From a virus: a stretch of DNA of 20,711 nucleotides. The position numbers and the translations under genes are program-made. Shown here in pieces: positions 875 through 20,711 of the stretch; within the stretch, counting starts at the first letter, position 1, and each line of letters begins with the position of its first letter. The stretch lies in the IMG/VR virus record IMGVR_UViG_3300048828_000831, positions 1 to 20,711 of that record. The stretch is one strand, 5' to 3'. Under the pieces are notes generated by a model. The model searched no databases and was not told the DNA's origin. It was given only the letters and a program-made list of their open reading frames with translations.

Positions 875-1489
875 ATGGGTGCAAAACTAATTACCGAGGA
901 GAATGCAGAGAAGGTTAAGCAAAAGGTTGTCTCTAATATACTTACGAAAGTAAGAGAAGGTAAAACACCAACGGCAATGGAGATGGAATTGTTGGATAAA
1001 TATACCGCTTCCTCCGATGTTGGCTTTAGTGGGACATATGCAAAGAACCAAACTGAGTTAGCTAAATTGATCGGGGTCGATAGAAAAACTATCCAGAGGT
1101 GGAGAAAGGACCCTACATTCCCAAAGCCAAAAGCTGATGGTCGTTACACATTAAGTGAAGCTGTAGCATGGAAGGATGCAATGGGATCAACGGCTGGTGA
1201 CCTAACAAGTAAGGAGTCTGCACAAGTTAAAAGCATTTTATTGCAAAATGAGAAATTGGAAATACAGGTAGGGATACTTAAAAGCGAGTATACGCCTAAT
1301 GTTGATATAGATCAACAAGTGGCAGAGATGGTTCAGCAAGCCAAAAGGGAACTTCTTGCCCTACCCTCCTCATTAGCTCCACAAGTTATTGGTCAGACTG
1401 TAGCAGAAGCAGAGAAAATCATTAAGCAAAGTCTAGTTGAAGCATTAAGATCACTACATGAAGGGGAATGGTTAAGTGGGGAAAAATAA
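875..1489 (+). CDS. Terminase small subunit (Nu1-like, HTH)
   Basis: Predicted DNA-recognition subunit of the packaging motor, which selects phage DNA and hands it to the large terminase. Of 204 residues, 57-80 (NQTELAKLIGVDRKTIQRWR and following) form a typical helix-turn-helix with a wing-like continuation at 89-102 (GRYTLSEAVAWKDA), as in lambda Nu1-type small terminases. The rest is largely helical; residues 150-196 resemble the oligomerisation part of this group, with LLALPSSLAPQV in the middle. Length fits the family. The start is the ATG at 875; it lacks a Shine-Dalgarno site and instead follows a perfect inverted repeat. It is the first gene after the repeat array and starts the long packaging-head unit; its end overlaps the next gene by 14 bases. 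The assignment rests on the HTH plus its place before TerL. Confidence 0.8.
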   Translation: MGAKLITEENAEKVKQKVVSNILTKVREGKTPTAMEMELLDKYTASSDVGFSGTYAKNQTELAKLIGVDRKTIQRWRKDPTFPKPKADGRYTLSEAVAWKDAMGSTAGDLTSKESAQVKSILLQNEKLEIQVGILKSEYTPNVDIDQQVAEMVQQAKRELLALPSSLAPQVIGQTVAEAEKIIKQSLVEALRSLHEGEWLSGEK

Positions 1490-1874
1490 TTCATTATTAC
1501 ATTTCGATGAAAATAGAGCTGATCTTCAGCTCGATGGGCAGTGTCACCACTTTGATTATGATGCGATAGATAATGAGCATAAAGAGCCTAGTTATGATCC
1601 AGATCAAGTTGCTCAAATGGGAGAGGTACTAAGAGAGATGCTTACTTGGCTTACAATGGGGGATGTAAATTCTGCCAGTTATGGGCAAACATTAATGAGA
1701 AAGACAATAGCTATGTGTTGGGTGTTAAGACCAGAATTATTTGAAGGGATGGCTTTATCGGAGATTGCAAAAGCAAAAGGAGTCAATGTCTACAAGCAGT
1801 CTCTTAGCAAGCAAGCAATTAAATTTTCCGAGAAATTTAGCGTTAAGGGTAGAGGTCAACGAAAAAGATTATGA
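1476..1874 (+). CDS. HTH-like protein of the packaging module
   Basis: 132-residue protein starting at GTG 1476, with an AGGGG ribosome site at 1462-1466, inside the end of terS. The N-terminal 40 residues are polar with several His (CHHFDYDA). Residues 45-90 are predicted helical and include a Met/Trp-rich stretch. Residues 93-130 (ALSEIAKAKGVNVYKQSLSK, then KGRGQRKRL) look like a helix-turn-helix followed by a very basic tail, so DNA binding is likely. Its place next to TerS suggests a role in packaging-site recognition or in regulating the module, but the family was not recognised and no enzyme motif is visible. The downstream gene starts within its stop codon (ATGA). Confidence 0.7.
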   Translation: MGKNNSLLHFDENRADLQLDGQCHHFDYDAIDNEHKEPSYDPDQVAQMGEVLREMLTWLTMGDVNSASYGQTLMRKTIAMCWVLRPELFEGMALSEIAKAKGVNVYKQSLSKQAIKFSEKFSVKGRGQRKRL

Positions 1875-2479
1875 AAACTGTAGATAAAAAAATAGGTGTT
1901 TTAAAACCAAGTGAGTACAATCCAAGGGAGCTGACCAAGAAGCAGTATGGTGACCTCAAGTCAAGTTTGCAAAAGTTTGGCTTAGTTGAGCCCGTGTTAG
2001 TCAACATGCAAAAAGGGCGTGAGAATATTGTAATCGGTGGGCATCAAAGATTGAAGATATGGGCAGAGTTAGGCAACGACACCGTACCATGCGTTGAAAT
2101 CAAACTTACTCTAGCGAAAGAGAAAGAATTGAATGTTCGTATGAATAAAAATGGTGGACAATGGGATTGGGACTTATTGGCAAACAACTTTGATGCCGAG
2201 GATTTAATTGATTGGGGATTTGAGGCAGATGATGTTTTAAAAGAGCTTACAGATGAGGATGCGGAAGAAGAACCAGAAGTTAAGTTTTCTGAATTTATAG
2301 ATGAATCAAATAATTATGTAGTTCTTACTTTTGACAACGATGTAGATTGGTTGTCTGCACAAACTCATTTTGACCTGGATTCTGTTCACTCACGGAGAGC
2401 CAATGGAAAGCCGTGGAGTAAGGGAGTTGGACGAGTTATTAAGGGTGCAGATTATATAAGGAGCTTAAATAAGAAATGA
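1871..2479 (+). CDS. ParB-domain nuclease-like protein
   Basis: The N-terminal half (residues about 7-90) is a ParB/Spo0J N-terminal domain: LKPSEYNPRELTKKQ, then KFGLVEPVLV, and the signature GGHQR at 56-60. In phages this domain appears in proteins tied to DNA methylation or base modification as well as in partition proteins. The middle (90-125) resembles the extension seen in modification-linked ParB proteins (MNKNGGQWDWDLLANNFD). An acidic linker at 128-137 leads to a C-terminal segment (about 145-200: NYVVLTFDNDVDW and GVGRVIKGADYI) found in phage versions. No ParA partner or methylase is seen, so plasmid-style partition is unlikely. Coupled at both ends (ATGA with the previous gene, overlap with the glycosyltransferase start). 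Likely role: handling or marking DNA together with the next gene. Confidence 0.8.
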   Translation: MKTVDKKIGVLKPSEYNPRELTKKQYGDLKSSLQKFGLVEPVLVNMQKGRENIVIGGHQRLKIWAELGNDTVPCVEIKLTLAKEKELNVRMNKNGGQWDWDLLANNFDAEDLIDWGFEADDVLKELTDEDAEEEPEVKFSEFIDESNNYVVLTFDNDVDWLSAQTHFDLDSVHSRRANGKPWSKGVGRVIKGADYIRSLNKK

Positions 2480-3222
2480 TGATATTAGCTCCCAGTTGGA
2501 AGAGAGCTAACATATGCACCTCTCATAAGTATTTTCCTAGCCTTAAATATGTTGTATGTAATTCACAAGCGCAGAGTTATTTAGATAAAGGTTTGCCCGT
2601 CTTGACATGTAAAGATTCCGATCAAGGCAATGTGAGTCGCGTCAGAAATTGGATACTTGATTATGCTGGCGAAAAAGATGTGTGTATAGTCGATGATGAC
2701 CTCAAGTGCCTTTCAATGTGGAATGGCAACGATTGTCGGAAGATGATTGGGGAGGAAGCGGAAGAGTTTATCGAATATGGTTTCACCCTAGCAAAGGAAT
2801 TTGGTGTACGAATGTGGGGAGTTAATATTATACAAGATAAAGGTGCGTTTAGGGAATATACTCCTTTTAGTCTGACAAATGTTATTCTCGGACCCTTTGG
2901 TGGATTCTCAAATCCTATTTGCAGGTATGACGAAAATCTCCCCTTAAAGGAAGATTATGATTTAAGCTTACAGATGATAAATAAGTACCGGAAGATACTT
3001 AGAATCAATCATGTTCATTATATATGTGACCAGCACACAAATGTTGGGGGATGTGCCGAGTACAGAACTATTGATGAGGAAAAAGATCAGTTTGAACTAT
3101 TAGAAAAAAAGTGGGGTAAGGATATTGTGCGAAGAGATAAAGGTAATTCAAATACCGAAAGAAAGCGACAAGTCACCTATGATATAAACCCTATTATAAA
3201 AATACCCATAGGAGGTGTCTAA
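2476..3222 (+). CDS. TET-associated-type glycosyltransferase (TAGT-like)
   Basis: Predicted nucleotide-sugar glycosyltransferase of the type phages use to decorate hypermodified DNA bases. In 248 residues: an opening APSWKRANICTSHKYFP, the QGNVSRVRNWILD segment at 50-62, the DDD metal/sugar-nucleotide motif at 73-75 (VCIVDDDLK), an acidic KEDYD at 158-162, and HTNVGGC at 187-193, followed by a basic tail ending NPIIKIPIGGV. This order matches what I recall of the TET-associated glycosyltransferase family. It has no signal peptide or membrane segment, so it acts in the cytoplasm. It starts at ATG 2476, overlapping the ParB gene; ATG 2479 is an alternative. No TET/JBP dioxygenase, hydroxymethylase or thymidylate-synthase-like gene is in the window, so the acceptor base is unknown. 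A protein-modifying glycosyltransferase is the main alternative. Confidence 0.7.
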   Translation: MMILAPSWKRANICTSHKYFPSLKYVVCNSQAQSYLDKGLPVLTCKDSDQGNVSRVRNWILDYAGEKDVCIVDDDLKCLSMWNGNDCRKMIGEEAEEFIEYGFTLAKEFGVRMWGVNIIQDKGAFREYTPFSLTNVILGPFGGFSNPICRYDENLPLKEDYDLSLQMINKYRKILRINHVHYICDQHTNVGGCAEYRTIDEEKDQFELLEKKWGKDIVRRDKGNSNTERKRQVTYDINPIIKIPIGGV

Positions 3223-4127
3223 TGAATGAAAAACCATTTAAAATAAGAAAAGTATCAGATGGTGTATTTTTTATTGATATATTTTTTGAAGATAAAAAAG
3301 TAAACAAACCCATCTGGTGCTTGTTAAGAAGTGATGCCCATCACGATAATCCTCATTCAGATAATGATATGGAGAGGAGGCATCTTGATCAGGCTTTGCA
3401 AAGAAAGGCATTCATATTGGATAACGGAGATGCTTTTTGTGCAATGCAAGGCAAGGGTGATCCAAGAGCAAGTAAAGATGATATAAAGGAGGAGCATAAA
3501 GGTGGCAATTATCTCGATAAATTGGTGGACTCGTACGCAGATTGGCTTAAGCCGTATGCGGAGAATATTCTCGTTATGGGTAAGGGTAATCACGAAACGG
3601 CAGTATATAAACATAGGGAGACTGATCTCACCCAAAGACTGGTCAATTCACTCAATGGAAAAACAAATGCAAAAATCAAAAGTGGGCAAATTGCAAACTG
3701 GATCGGGATTAGAGCAAGGTGCCTTCAAGACCCAAAGAGGAGGAGCATGGGAACAGTATGGTTTTATATGTTCCACGGAGCAGGAGGGGGAGGACCCGTC
3801 ACTAAAGGAGTCATCGGCGCGAACAGGATGGGGGTTACTCATCCCGACGCTAATATCATTGCTACTGGGCATACCCATGATAGTTGGTTTCTGCCTAATG
3901 CTCGCGCTCGCATTACCGCTAATGGTGTTGAATACATTGATGAGCAATTACATATCAAAATTCCAACATATAAGAATGAGTATGGGGTTAAGGACTCAGG
4001 CTTCCATATGGAGAAAGGTCGACCACCAAAACCCCTTGGGGCGGTGTGGATCAAGTTTTATATGGGGAGCAGACCCGAGTTGGCGGGATCTGAACAATTG
4101 AAATACGAAGCTACTAGAGCAGATTAA
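3222..4127 (+). CDS. Calcineurin-like metallophosphoesterase
   Basis: The full set of metal-binding motifs is present in order: SDAHHD at 37-42 (D-x-H), NGDAF at 68-72, GNHE at 122-125, FHG with His185, and GHTH at 216-219. This defines an active two-metal phosphoesterase of 301 residues. Substrates of the fold include phosphoproteins, nucleotides and nucleic acids; the sequence does not decide. The start at 3222 shares one base with the previous stop (TAATG) and has a strong GGAGGTGT site at 3211-3218. It follows the ParB and glycosyltransferase genes and precedes TerL, so it may take part in DNA modification (removing a phosphate from a base-modification intermediate) or in DNA processing before packaging; both are inference. 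Family confidence is high, role low. Confidence 0.88.
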   Translation: MNEKPFKIRKVSDGVFFIDIFFEDKKVNKPIWCLLRSDAHHDNPHSDNDMERRHLDQALQRKAFILDNGDAFCAMQGKGDPRASKDDIKEEHKGGNYLDKLVDSYADWLKPYAENILVMGKGNHETAVYKHRETDLTQRLVNSLNGKTNAKIKSGQIANWIGIRARCLQDPKRRSMGTVWFYMFHGAGGGGPVTKGVIGANRMGVTHPDANIIATGHTHDSWFLPNARARITANGVEYIDEQLHIKIPTYKNEYGVKDSGFHMEKGRPPKPLGAVWIKFYMGSRPELAGSEQLKYEATRAD

Positions 4128-4135
4128 AATGAAAT

Positions 4136-5917
4136 ATGAGTGTAGTCGAAATTGCAGCACGGAGGTCGTGGAAGCCTCCAGACACCCGATTGACATGGGA
4201 GTGGGCTGACCAAAATGTTAAGTTAGACCCCACCTCACCCTATCAAGGGTATTGGAAGTCGGAAATATCTCCTTGGGTCAGGGAGTTAATGGAAACATTC
4301 TCAGATAACGAAGTGTCTGATATTAGTGTTATGTGTTCAGCTCAATCAGCGAAGACTCAGACAATGATTTGTTTGTTAATGTGGGCTTTAGCTGAAGAGC
4401 CAGCTCCCACTATGTGGGTAACAAGTACTGCTGAAGAAGCTGCGTTTTTAATGAAAACCCGCCTGATTCCGACTATTAAAGCTTGTGCTCCTGTTGCAGA
4501 AACGCTTATTGAGGACAGAAGTGCGGTGTCAAAGATGGAGGTTCACCTAAAAGGGGCATCATTAGGAGTAGTAGGCTCGTCATCTCCCTCACGATTACAG
4601 TCTAAGCCCGTTAGGTGGTTATTCCTGGATGAGGTTAGGAATTACCCAGAGGGCGCGTTAGAAATGGTTCTAAAGAGGACGCGAGCTTATTGGAATGCAA
4701 GAAGGTGTATTGTATCAACTCCTGATAATCATAATGATGCAACTCATAGAGCTTACCTTCAAGGAGACCAAAGAGTTTGGCATTTTAAGTGTAGGAGTTG
4801 CGGTGATTGGTTTCCAATGAGTTGGGAATATATGAAGTGGACAGAGGATGAAGAGACTAAAAACGAAAGAGGATATAATTTTGATAAACTTGCAGAAACC
4901 GTAAGATTTGAATGCAAGTGTGGAGAAGTATATAAGGATGAACCAGCGGACAGAAGACACTTTGTAAATAGTGGTAAGTATATATCTTTAAACCCAAATG
5001 CACCTAAGAACAGAAAGTCTTTTCATTGGAATGCGTTGCTTCCTCCTTGGGTTAAGTGGAGAGACCTCGTTGAGGAGTTTCTTATAGCGAAGGGGGCAAC
5101 TTATAATGGAGATACTTCGCCATTAAAGGATTTCATCAATGAGTCACTCGGAGAGCCGTGGGAGGATCGATTAGGAGATTTTGAAGACTTTGGGCAATTG
5201 CAAAAGCGTGCTGGGGATTATGCCTTGGGAGATGATTGGAAGGATGAGGAGGTTAGATTCTTAGCTGCTGATAAACAAGCCAAGGGAGGGATACATTATT
5301 GGTATGTTGTAAGGGCATTCGCAAAAGAGGGAGCAAAGTCTAGGTTGGTGGATTACGGACAAGTTGGTGGCGATAAAGAATTGTTGGAGGTAGCTGAACT
5401 CAACAATGTTATTCCAGATAATTGTATAATAGATTCAGGATTTGATACTACTTCTGTATATAAATTTTGCCAGCGTCATGGGTGGAAGCCGATGAAGGGC
5501 TCGGGGACTCAAGGATTCAAGCACCGAAATAAAAAGACAGGAAGAATGTCTACTCAGTTATGGACATGGACAAAAGCTGAAGTAGGTATTGGTACAAAAG
5601 AGCATGGTCTGCATAAAGCCATAAGATTGTTTCTTTGGTCTAATGATGGTTTGAAAGATATGTTTGCTGAGTTAATGCAAGGATTTATAGGGGATTGGAC
5701 AATAGCCAAAGATGTTACGAGTGAGTACACAAGACAAGTTACGGCAGAAAAGCGGGTACAAACTATAGATATAAAAGGAAGAAGTAAGTACGAGTGGCTC
5801 CCAGTTCGGAAGGACAATCACATGTTAGATTGCGAATTGATGATATTAGTAGCATCACTAGCTAACAAGCTTATCACGCAGACATATACGGAAATGGAGA
5901 CTGAAGGGCTAGAGTAG
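4136..5917 (+). CDS. Terminase large subunit (GpA family)
   Basis: Packaging motor ATPase and nuclease. The 593 residues fit lambda GpA-type terminases. A deviant Walker A is at 67-74 (CSAQSAKT), Walker B at 162-166 (LFLDE), and the coupling motif around STPDN at 194-198. A zinc ribbon follows (CRSC at 219-222, CKC at 260-262). The C-terminal nuclease has acidic candidates Asp379 (FLAADKQ), Asp433 (IIDSGF) and Asp565 (HMLDCE). The N-terminal ITPWVRE-like region (SPWVRELMET, about 45-54) is also typical. The start is ATG 4136, 8 bases after the phosphoesterase stop, with no strong ribosome site; ATG 4129 is in another frame. It lies about 2.6 kb from terS because of the inserted ParB, glycosyltransferase and phosphoesterase genes. 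Partner of the small terminase and the portal. Confidence 0.95.
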   Translation: MSVVEIAARRSWKPPDTRLTWEWADQNVKLDPTSPYQGYWKSEISPWVRELMETFSDNEVSDISVMCSAQSAKTQTMICLLMWALAEEPAPTMWVTSTAEEAAFLMKTRLIPTIKACAPVAETLIEDRSAVSKMEVHLKGASLGVVGSSSPSRLQSKPVRWLFLDEVRNYPEGALEMVLKRTRAYWNARRCIVSTPDNHNDATHRAYLQGDQRVWHFKCRSCGDWFPMSWEYMKWTEDEETKNERGYNFDKLAETVRFECKCGEVYKDEPADRRHFVNSGKYISLNPNAPKNRKSFHWNALLPPWVKWRDLVEEFLIAKGATYNGDTSPLKDFINESLGEPWEDRLGDFEDFGQLQKRAGDYALGDDWKDEEVRFLAADKQAKGGIHYWYVVRAFAKEGAKSRLVDYGQVGGDKELLEVAELNNVIPDNCIIDSGFDTTSVYKFCQRHGWKPMKGSGTQGFKHRNKKTGRMSTQLWTWTKAEVGIGTKEHGLHKAIRLFLWSNDGLKDMFAELMQGFIGDWTIAKDVTSEYTRQVTAEKRVQTIDIKGRSKYEWLPVRKDNHMLDCELMILVASLANKLITQTYTEMETEGLE

Positions 5918-18508: not shown

Positions 18509-20711
18509 GCCACCTGAAATCCATCGGCATTGATGTCGGTGTCATTGCAAAAGGCTTAAACCACAAAGTTTCTATATTTAGCGGTCGGCTTGATGACACC
18601 GCTGGTAAAGTGTCACTTTATGCTACCCATCTCCCGTATGAGCCAGTATCTCTAGCTAATTATGAGGATTGTGGGTGCCATGATTTAAGTACCGCACAAG
18701 GTGCGTTAGATAGATTAGCACAATTAAGAGCCGAGGGTGGAGATAGGCTTGATGCACTAGAAGCCCAAGGAGGTGTTGGGGGTGGATTAGCTCAATGGAC
18801 AGAAAATGGCAACGGTGATATATTACCTGATGCAGATGATGGTCAAGATTTAGGTTCACCAGATAAAAGAGTACGAGATTTATATTTAGGACCTGCCTCA
18901 CTTAAAATTGTAGATGACCAAGGGAATGTACAAGCATATGATAAAAGTTGGTTTGAGGGCGCAACTGGATCATCTGCATACCAAATAGCAGTCGCGAATG
19001 GATTTTCGGGTACGCAAGGCGATTGGTTGGATTCCCTAAAGGGAGCTGATGGACAAGATGGAGTAAATGGACAAGATGGCGCGAATGGACAAGATGGCGC
19101 GAATGGACAAGATGGTGTAAACGGGCAAGACGGTGCGAATGGGCAAGACGGTGCGAATGGGCAAGACGGAGTTAATGGCGTAAATGGGCAAGATGGCGTA
19201 AATGGCGTAAACGGACAGGATGGCGTAAACGGACAGGACGGACAGGATGGTGCAAACGGACAGGACGGACAGGATGGTGCAAACGGACAGGATGGACAGG
19301 ATGGTGCAAACGGACAGGATGGTGCAAACGGACAGGATGGTGCGAATGGAGTAGATGGAGCAGATGGAGCAGATGCGACTATAAGCAAATACCTAGTAAG
19401 CACACTTCCAAATAAAGCCGAAGATGGGACAATAGTTTTTGTAGAAAATGGATCATCCCAAGGAGAGCCTTGCCTAGCATATTTTAACAGTGGTAAGTGG
19501 CAGAGGAGTTCGGATGATTCTGTTATAGTGGATAGAACAATTGATATTTTCTTATTAGCTGGTCAATCAAATGCCCATGGACATGCACAAGTAAGTGATT
19601 TAAGTGCAGGACAGTCATCACAAGATGGTTTTTTTTATCATTCCTGGCATCAAGATACCTCAAATGCGTCTACTACTCAGATTTATTCTGATATAGCTAC
19701 ATCGGTAGAAGCGGGATATACGAGAGGTGGAGATGCTTCTAGGTTTGGACCTGAAATGGGATTCTTCTATCAAGCTAATAATATTGATTTAGCTAATGGA
19801 AAGCCAATCGGCATGATTAAACATGCCATAGGTGCATCTCAATTAATAGATGATCCAAGTGACCCTAATTCAGCCATTTTTTCAGATTGGGACTTAACTG
19901 CAACTGGTGATAGGCGAGGTGATGCACTAAGAGCTTTTAAGGTAGCTTTAGCAGATGGATTGAGCAAGTTTGAGGCAGAGGGTTATGCCTATCGAATAGC
20001 GGGAATGATTTGGTGGCAAGGAGAGAGTGGGTCAAGCGTTTCGGGCTTAAATGCACTCATCGATCATTTTAGAACTTACTTAGATGACAATTACACATTG
20101 GATATGCCAAAGGCTGAGTTCCCCGTAGTCATTACAAAAATTGGTTATGGTACTGATTTAACTCCCGTGGCAGATGCAGATGATTATGTGGGTATAGTAG
20201 ATGCTGGAAATTATGGTCATAGTGGTACTCAAAACCATGTTGGTGATGTAACTGATGGCTCTGCTGATATAAATAATAGTGGCGTAAATGATATGTTTGA
20301 AATTGGGGAAGCATATGCAGTTGCCATGGAGAGCACAATTACCCCAGCTTGGAATCCTTCTAGTATTGCAACTAGATTCTGGATGGATGCTAATGACTTA
20401 TCGACTATTGGCACAACGAATGGAATTGTTACTAGTATCAATGATTTATCGGGAAACAGTTCAACAGTAATACCACTGGGGTCTTCCACTGTTCAATCTG
20501 TATTGGCGAGCCAAAATGGAAGAAACATATTAAGGTTTGATGGGGATAGTGATGCCTCAAATTGGACTGGCGTTAATTTTAGTTCTACTGCCGTACACAA
20601 GTGGTTCATGACCTTAAAAGTTACTCAGGCGGATCAGAACGATGGGCTCTTACATGTGAATGGTAATGGATTGCATTTAATGTTATTTCAATTTGGTGCT
20701 AATTTCAAAGC
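18505..20711 (+). CDS. Collagen-like tail fibre with SASA-type esterase domain, 3' end outside
   Basis: Open for 735 codons from GTG 18505 (GTGA overlap with the previous stop) to the window end without a stop. Domains in order: a beta-rich N-terminus; a short coiled coil (GALDRLAQLRAEGGDRLDAL, about 70-95); the phage-fibre phrase NGDILPDADDGQDLGS with RVRDLYLG; then GSSAYQIAVANGFSGTQGDW, a known lead-in to collagen-like repeats; 37 Gly-X-Y triplets at residues 180-290; a small beta segment; an SGNH/SASA (sialate O-acetylesterase-type) domain with LLAGQSN (nucleophile Ser355) and WWQGES at 503-508; and from about 625 a second LamG-like domain (FWMDANDLST, then INDLSGNSS, RNILRFDG), cut by the window end. 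Predicted receptor-binding fibre that removes acetyl or related ester groups from host surface glycans. The catalytic Asp/His pair is not firmly placed. Confidence 0.85.
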   Translation, partial: MSHLKSIGIDVGVIAKGLNHKVSIFSGRLDDTAGKVSLYATHLPYEPVSLANYEDCGCHDLSTAQGALDRLAQLRAEGGDRLDALEAQGGVGGGLAQWTENGNGDILPDADDGQDLGSPDKRVRDLYLGPASLKIVDDQGNVQAYDKSWFEGATGSSAYQIAVANGFSGTQGDWLDSLKGADGQDGVNGQDGANGQDGANGQDGVNGQDGANGQDGANGQDGVNGVNGQDGVNGVNGQDGVNGQDGQDGANGQDGQDGANGQDGQDGANGQDGANGQDGANGVDGADGADATISKYLVSTLPNKAEDGTIVFVENGSSQGEPCLAYFNSGKWQRSSDDSVIVDRTIDIFLLAGQSNAHGHAQVSDLSAGQSSQDGFFYHSWHQDTSNASTTQIYSDIATSVEAGYTRGGDASRFGPEMGFFYQANNIDLANGKPIGMIKHAIGASQLIDDPSDPNSAIFSDWDLTATGDRRGDALRAFKVALADGLSKFEAEGYAYRIAGMIWWQGESGSSVSGLNALIDHFRTYLDDNYTLDMPKAEFPVVITKIGYGTDLTPVADADDYVGIVDAGNYGHSGTQNHVGDVTDGSADINNSGVNDMFEIGEAYAVAMESTITPAWNPSSIATRFWMDANDLSTIGTTNGIVTSINDLSGNSSTVIPLGSSTVQSVLASQNGRNILRFDGDSDASNWTGVNFSSTAVHKWFMTLKVTQADQNDGLLHVNGNGLHLMLFQFGANFK
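19042..19374 (+). repeat. Collagen-coding repeat, 37 Gly-X-Y triplets
   Basis: 333 bases made of 9-base units, mostly paired as 18-base units of the type GGACAAGATGGTGCGAAT. They encode Gly-(Q/V/A)-(D/N) without one Pro. Neighbouring units differ mainly at silent positions, and the right-hand part (about 19200-19340) is more homogeneous than the left, which suggests recent copy-number change there. It lies inside the fibre gene. Confidence 0.9.

Follow-up and report, generated by a model that had tools for sequence, protein, structure and literature searches.

The window analyzed here is a complete virus record of 20,711 bases (IMG/VR record IMGVR_UViG_3300048828_000831), itself a fragment. 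Between its genes for the small (TerS) and large (TerL) terminase subunits lie a gene for a ParB-like protein and a gene for a glycosyltransferase (GT) of the TET-associated type (TAGT). We consider it fairly probable that these two genes form a cassette in which ParB guides the GT to glycosylate phage DNA, on an acceptor that does not come from a recognized phage enzyme. The features of the locus, all on the plus strand, are the following.

875..1489 (+): TerS-like helix-turn-helix (HTH) protein, 204 residues; left flank, outside the cassette; phrog_57, terminase small subunit, 8.2e-19
1476..1874 (+): U132, 132 residues; no assigned family; belongs to the terminase module of the lineage
1871..2479 (+): ParB/Srx-family protein, 202 residues; first cassette gene; ParB_N, phrog_620
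2279..2476 (+): C-terminal GT-partner module of ParB, residues ~137-202; identity and reciprocal search
2476..3222 (+): predicted TAGT-type GT-A glycosyltransferase, 248 residues; second cassette gene; TAGT, phrog_842, model
2692..2700 (+): DDD (DxD-type) metal/donor motif of the GT, residues 73-75; alignment
3222..4127 (+): calcineurin-like metallophosphoesterase, 301 residues; gene of the lineage, outside the cassette; phrog_7339
4136..5917 (+): TerL, GpA type; right flank; GpA_ATPase 1.2e-40, GpA_nuclease 3e-29

Neighboring genes overlap by 4 nucleotides (U132/ParB), 4 nucleotides (ParB/GT) and 1 nucleotide (GT/phosphoesterase), followed by an 8-nucleotide gap to TerL. An earlier note on this DNA, made from its letters alone, had placed ParB, TAGT-like and phosphoesterase genes between the HTH gene and TerL; its coordinates and overlaps proved exact, and its three named genes are present, but it passed over U132, which lies between TerS and ParB. 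U132 gave no match of weight in Pfam and PHROG searches and is conserved in 12 loci.

Identity of the glycosyltransferase and its ParB partner

Judged from its sequence and its predicted fold, the 248-residue product is a TAGT-type GT-A glycosyltransferase, as the earlier note had supposed. Its Pfam TAGT (PF20691) score of 25.9 bits falls just below the cut-off of 27.5, relatives score 31.1 to 37.9 bits, and phrog_842 is matched at 1e-11. An AlphaFold2 model built from 41 relatives (mean predicted local distance difference test [pLDDT] 86.8) matched TAGT-named proteins in BFVD with template modeling (TM) scores of 0.69 to 0.77, the top match, at 0.83, being unnamed; among the nearest viral models are several TET-associated glycosyltransferases and, from Klebsiella phage PKO111, the beta-glucosyl-HMC-alpha-glucosyltransferase. 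The family profile of the GT also matches the TAGT of phage T6 (45.8 bits). The DDD motif is invariant in the 41 relatives, and in alignments all three motifs (DDD, ED and GG) are shared with the T6, Acadian and LuckyBarnes enzymes. A sequence search of the PDB with the GT returned nothing of weight. In the GT tree, cassette GTs fall into two groups (a main group and the first GTs of the tandem pairs described below), apart from the TET-linked TAGTs, in a topology with long branches and an uncertain deep order.

The window ParB scores 27.6 bits against Pfam ParB_N (cut-off, 26.3) and matches phrog_620 at 9e-30; Foldseek matches it to ParB and Noc structures (best, 5.5e-7), so that both sequence and fold are of the ParB/Srx kind, and the GxxR of the nucleotide motif (G57, R60), which bears on a possible role as a CTP-dependent DNA clamp, is invariant. 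Plasmid comparisons gave many matches to ParB/Srx N-terminal domains and few over the full length. No ParA partner was matched among the 20 Pfam-scanned open reading frames (ORFs) of the near-complete relative G002, of which the remaining, mostly structural ORFs were only partly scanned.

The last ~65 residues of ParB form a C-terminal module with the pattern FSE...NYVVL.FDND.DWL.AQTHF...NGK.WSKG.GRV..G, and this is the best-conserved part of the cassette: across 37 non-redundant loci, mean identity was 62% for the module, 51% for the GT and 36% for the ParB domain. A search with the module alone gave 253 viral matches, of which the best 80 were kept and 77 were readable. A GT adjoined the ParB bearing the module in 77 of these 77 loci, although weaker matches without a GT may exist, and TerL lay no more than 7 ORFs away in 74. 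The module profile matched the ParB of prophage Javan291 of Streptococcus marmotae HTS5 (1.2e-31) and, weakly, that of Microbacterium phage Jayden; it found no match in ParBs paired with a DNA methyltransferase, PAPS reductase, DUF4417 or Mom. The dedication of the module to the GT is observed as linkage, from which we infer that the module docks to the GT. Divergence of the module correlated with that of the GT (r, 0.70) and not with that of TerL (r, 0.13) across 22 loci, a comparison that is indicative only because pairwise values are not independent.

Distribution and neighbors of the pair

Viral contigs yielded 236 relatives, and the 80 best were read. In the analysis as a whole, six loci (L022, L023, L048, L102, L147 and L165) proved unreadable with a simple ORF caller and were excluded from the counts. 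ParB directly precedes the GT in 70 of the 74 viral loci that have both, the first in-frame start of the GT lying from 67 nucleotides before to 2 nucleotides after the end of ParB, and the pairing is therefore not due to chance. Together with the module search, this bears out the functional link between GT and ParB that the earlier note had drawn from general knowledge. Ten bacterial loci were also found, and ParB stood directly before the GT in all nine that were readable; the carriers are Bacteroides, Treponema, Phascolarctobacterium, Victivallaceae (two), Spirochaetia, Chitinophagaceae, Phycisphaerae, Roseibacillus and one further bacterium.

The terminases adjoining the pair are of GpA, Terminase_3, Terminase_6 and T7-like types, and prophage Javan291 has the order ParB-GT-TerS-TerL. 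The pair is mobile: the phages that carry it belong to hosts of many bacterial phyla, and the terminases near it come from several families. No terminase was recognized beside it in the two Victivallaceae loci (L104 and L106), where opposite-strand genes flank it, so the terminase neighborhood is a strong preference rather than a rule. The linkage to terminase genes noted earlier is supported, with TerL nearby in nearly all module loci and, in the mycobacteriophage Acadian, a ParB-TET/JBP-TAGT operon directly before TerS and TerL. The further suggestion that modification is coupled to packaging fared less well: the pair does adjoin terminases of several families, but its divergence follows that of the partner module, not that of TerL, and because of this and of the two bacterial loci without a recognized terminase, a shared position need not imply physical coupling.

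In 3 further loci of the 74 (L045, L051 and L053), a gene for an FkbM-type methyltransferase stands between ParB and GT; elsewhere the same slot holds an S-adenosylmethionine (SAM) methyltransferase (L212) or a radical SAM/SPASM enzyme of 292 residues (L280:2448-3326). It seems to be a slot for sugar- or base-tailoring enzymes. Tandem GTs of ~238 and 247 residues follow ParB at L081:1251-2709 and also in L057, L061-L065, L067-L071, L079, L080, L082, L084 and L092; the first GT of these pairs forms a clade of its own, and the arrangement may point to modification with two sugars. At L039:3510-3959, and likewise in L038, L046 and L049, the gene directly before ParB is cytidylyltransferase-like (PF01467, 4e-11) and perhaps supplies an activated donor.

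The phosphoesterase has a distribution of its own. It carries all metallophosphatase motifs (DxH, GD, GNHE and GHxH), matches phrog_7339 at 7e-9 and has at least 538 viral relatives. Three loci of the window lineage (L288, L289 and L290), with TerL proteins 72 to 73% identical to that of the window, read TerS-U132-phosphoesterase-TerL and have neither ParB nor GT. These are natural empty sites, which either a gain or a loss of the pair could explain. The overlapping genes, which look like one transcription unit in the window lineage, would suit a single pathway in which the phosphoesterase strips a phosphate from an intermediate, as the earlier note proposed. We regard such a three-gene pathway as very improbable, and it is largely refuted by the empty sites, which keep the phosphoesterase between U132 and TerL; in addition, a GT is present in only 8 of 79 phosphoesterase loci, and GT loci outside the lineage lack the phosphoesterase. 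For these reasons the phosphoesterase was rejected as a pathway enzyme and is not counted as part of the cassette. Of the three genes, ParB and GT travel together, and the phosphoesterase does not.

Elsewhere in the window (18843-19403), a long repetitive open frame lies on the minus strand; the plus strand there is probably a collagen-like repeat of a tail fiber that runs past the end of the window.

Acceptor and proposed mechanism

Enzymes that might make an acceptor were sought in, among others, a relative, G002 (47,823 bases), whose proteins are 82 to 93% identical to those of the cassette region in the window and which is practically a whole genome, because relative to the window it closes on itself within ~20 nucleotides. 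Its early genes encode ERF, a pyrimidine-dimer glycosylase, DnaC, RusA, a MoxR-type ATPase and a VWA protein, and many small ORFs have no family match. In G002 no gene was recognized as one for TET/JBP, thymidylate synthase, a DNA methyltransferase or a nucleotide kinase, which extends to nearly a whole genome the absence of a base-hydroxylating or hydroxymethylating enzyme remarked on in the window. Two other observations were made on this genome. A 374-residue protein encoded after the tail genes (L013:13681-14805, minus strand) has a glycosyltransferase-like ESD motif by eye, had no Pfam, PHROG or PDB match and is possibly a second glycosyltransferase. The MoxR-type AAA ATPase gene adjoins that of the VWA/metallopeptidase-like protein (DUF2201) at L013:2719-4957 (minus strand), which seemed unusual at such a genome size.

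Wider searches gave the same result. TET/JBP was matched in 0 of 30 viral or phage carrier records and in 0 of 8 bacterial genomes having the pair; the positive controls (L210, L218 and L226) matched, and G002, G014, Javan291 and L212 did not. Thymidylate synthase was found in none of the 30 carrier records (controls T6 and LuckyBarnes matched), T4 alpha-GT in none of 13 carriers (control T6 matched) and TGT/DpdA, of 7-deazaguanine modification, in none of 13 carriers, with 14 of 14 controls matching. A search of the carriers for C5 methyltransferases gave only two partial matches (G015 and G030). For the carriers searched, a hydroxylating or other acceptor enzyme of these kinds elsewhere in the genome was accordingly rejected. 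Nine large carriers from different phage groups have only two gene families in common, ParB and GT; that these two are shared follows from the choice of carriers, and the result is the absence of a third.

The cassette is linked to DNA modification because ParB-TET/JBP-TAGT operons exist in related phages and because the same ParB domain occurs with a methyltransferase, PAPS reductase, DUF4417 or Mom. The pair probably attaches a sugar to phage DNA, and we envisage the following. (i) The exchangeable N-terminal domain of ParB would contact DNA, and its near-constant C-terminal module would dock the GT, so that ParB would bring the GT to phage DNA. (ii) The GT-A active site would then take the sugar of a nucleotide-sugar donor and place it on an acceptor in that DNA, as suggested by homology to the T6 TAGT and by the TET-TAGT operons. 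(iii) Since the phages have no recognized TET/JBP, thymidylate-synthase-type hydroxymethylase or TGT/DpdA, the acceptor may be a host-made, novel or otherwise unmodified group. (iv) A place beside the terminase genes would give late expression, just before packaging, and the sugar would most likely shield phage DNA from host nucleases. (v) The neighboring phosphoesterase is a separate gene of the phage lineage.

Several points weigh against glycosylation of phage DNA by a ParB-guided GT. The carrier records are mostly fragments. The C-terminal module was modeled poorly, much of it below pLDDT 80 and loops below 50, so its fold is tentative and its docking to the GT putative. No DNA acceptor enzyme (TET/JBP, thymidylate synthase, TGT or alpha-GT) was found in the carriers searched, and because of this a protein or small-molecule acceptor is also conceivable. 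Finally, the best solved-structure neighbor of the GT model in the PDB is AvpGT, a family GT2 nucleoside 3'-O-glucosyltransferase that acts on free nucleosides (PMC11959488). By analogy, the GT might have pool nucleotides or nucleosides, or the 3'-OH ends of DNA, as its substrate instead of bases; we judge this quite improbable, as the TM score to AvpGT is only 0.55 at 17% identity and TAGT proteins are far closer.

The lack of an encoded DNA acceptor pathway, together with the conserved position beside TerS and TerL of several families, would also suit a GT whose acceptor is a protein, be it ParB, a subunit of the terminase or a capsid protein, the pair then regulating or marking the packaging machinery rather than DNA. 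This is unlikely in our assessment. First, DNA bases are the known or inferred target of the GT family, in T6 and in the TET operons. Second, the adjoining terminases belong to unrelated families and do not codiverge with the pair. Third, the ParB domain is found repeatedly in the company of DNA base-modifying enzymes, such as methyltransferases and Mom.

Within the favored reading, that of DNA glycosylation, the acceptor could arise in two ways. Its making by an unrecognized phage or host enzyme family (for example, as a hydroxymethylated base), with the GT adding a sugar as in T-even and TET phages, is a possibility that we hold tentatively. The base that the T6 TAGT modifies already carries glucose (PMC13216743), accessory genes vary from carrier to carrier, so that primary enzymes could vary too, and the many small ORFs of G002 without a family match leave room for such an enzyme; the nine large carriers without a third common gene family and the negative TET/JBP and thymidylate synthase searches, with their working controls, argue against it. 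More doubtful is a single step in which ParB and GT alone add the sugar to phage DNA that bears no other modification, for instance at an exocyclic amino group, with no prior hydroxylation and with the C-terminal module as an obligatory guide subunit. To our knowledge no direct glycosylation of a DNA base has been described so far; if the pair does perform it, it would be the first case and a transferable system of two genes. Action on ordinary DNA would, if true, represent a new kind of DNA modification, a DNA-labeling tool and a counter-defense spread across phages of many bacterial phyla.

Comparison with known systems

Linkage of ParB, TAGT and terminase is in itself known or expected, because three viral contigs (L210, L218 and L226) and Acadian carry ParB-TET/JBP-TAGT operons. 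Iyer and others are said to have first described and named TAGT in 2013 and to have discussed its linkage to ParB and terminase. Acadian (gp1-gp6) encodes in a row ParB, a weak TET/JBP match, TAGT, a PIG-L deacetylase, TerS and TerL. Its gp2 (L296:813-1691), between the ParB gene and TAGT, is annotated as a queuine tRNA-ribosyltransferase and is probably misannotated: a DpdA reading was dropped in favor of the Tet_JBP match, which at 21.6 bits is weak and below the cut-off. Like the cassette, these operons combine a ParB-like gene with a TAGT; unlike it, they encode a TET/JBP oxygenase and, in some cases, a PIG-L deacetylase, a P-loop protein or a second GT. The ParBs of L210, L218 and L226 differ from cassette ParBs at the C terminus, and the cassette has no TET/JBP in the carriers searched, its GTs forming separate clades.

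The T6 TAGT, a beta-glucosyl-HMC-alpha-glucosyltransferase, is homologous to the cassette GT and has the three motifs in common with it, but T6, unlike the carriers searched, also has a thymidylate-synthase-family hydroxymethylase and an alpha-GT. We know of no ParB partner of the T6 enzyme, and none was searched for. A pair in the Quhwahvirus Jayden likewise has ParB directly before a TAGT-like GT and a weak trace of the C-terminal module; in contrast to the cassette, identity is ~25%, no terminase is near in the region read and a UDP-glucose-dehydrogenase-like gene comes next.

Solitary TAGT homologues, without alpha-GT or beta-GT, have been reported in 288 of 753 phage genomes, where their function was left open and novel transferases were suggested; ParB and terminase are not mentioned (PMC13216743, 2026). 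Here a subset of such enzymes is linked with a ParB partner dedicated to it and with terminase genes. A large clade of solitary TAGTs is thus associated with one partner protein that has a diagnostic C-terminal module and with no known acceptor-making enzyme alongside, and the role left open by that study becomes directly testable with two small genes.

The ParB-DNA methyltransferase fusions and the ParB-PAPS reductase, ParB-DUF4417 and ParB-Mom pairs share the N-terminal domain family of ParB and a (putative) DNA-modifying partner, and several stand before terminase genes; they differ from the cassette in having another effector and another C terminus, with no GT-partner module. At one carrier locus (L109:3919-5177), a second ParB gene downstream of ParB-GT is directly followed by one for a Mom-family protein (PF25680, 1.8e-38), so that two ParB-led pairs stand in tandem before the terminase. 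These comparisons suggest a general rule: a ParB-like DNA adaptor is retained while the modifying enzyme attached to it changes between phages (methyltransferase, Mom, PAPS reductase, TET plus TAGT, or TAGT alone), often immediately ahead of the terminase genes. We read the cassette as a TET-less version of the known ParB-TET-TAGT-terminase operons.

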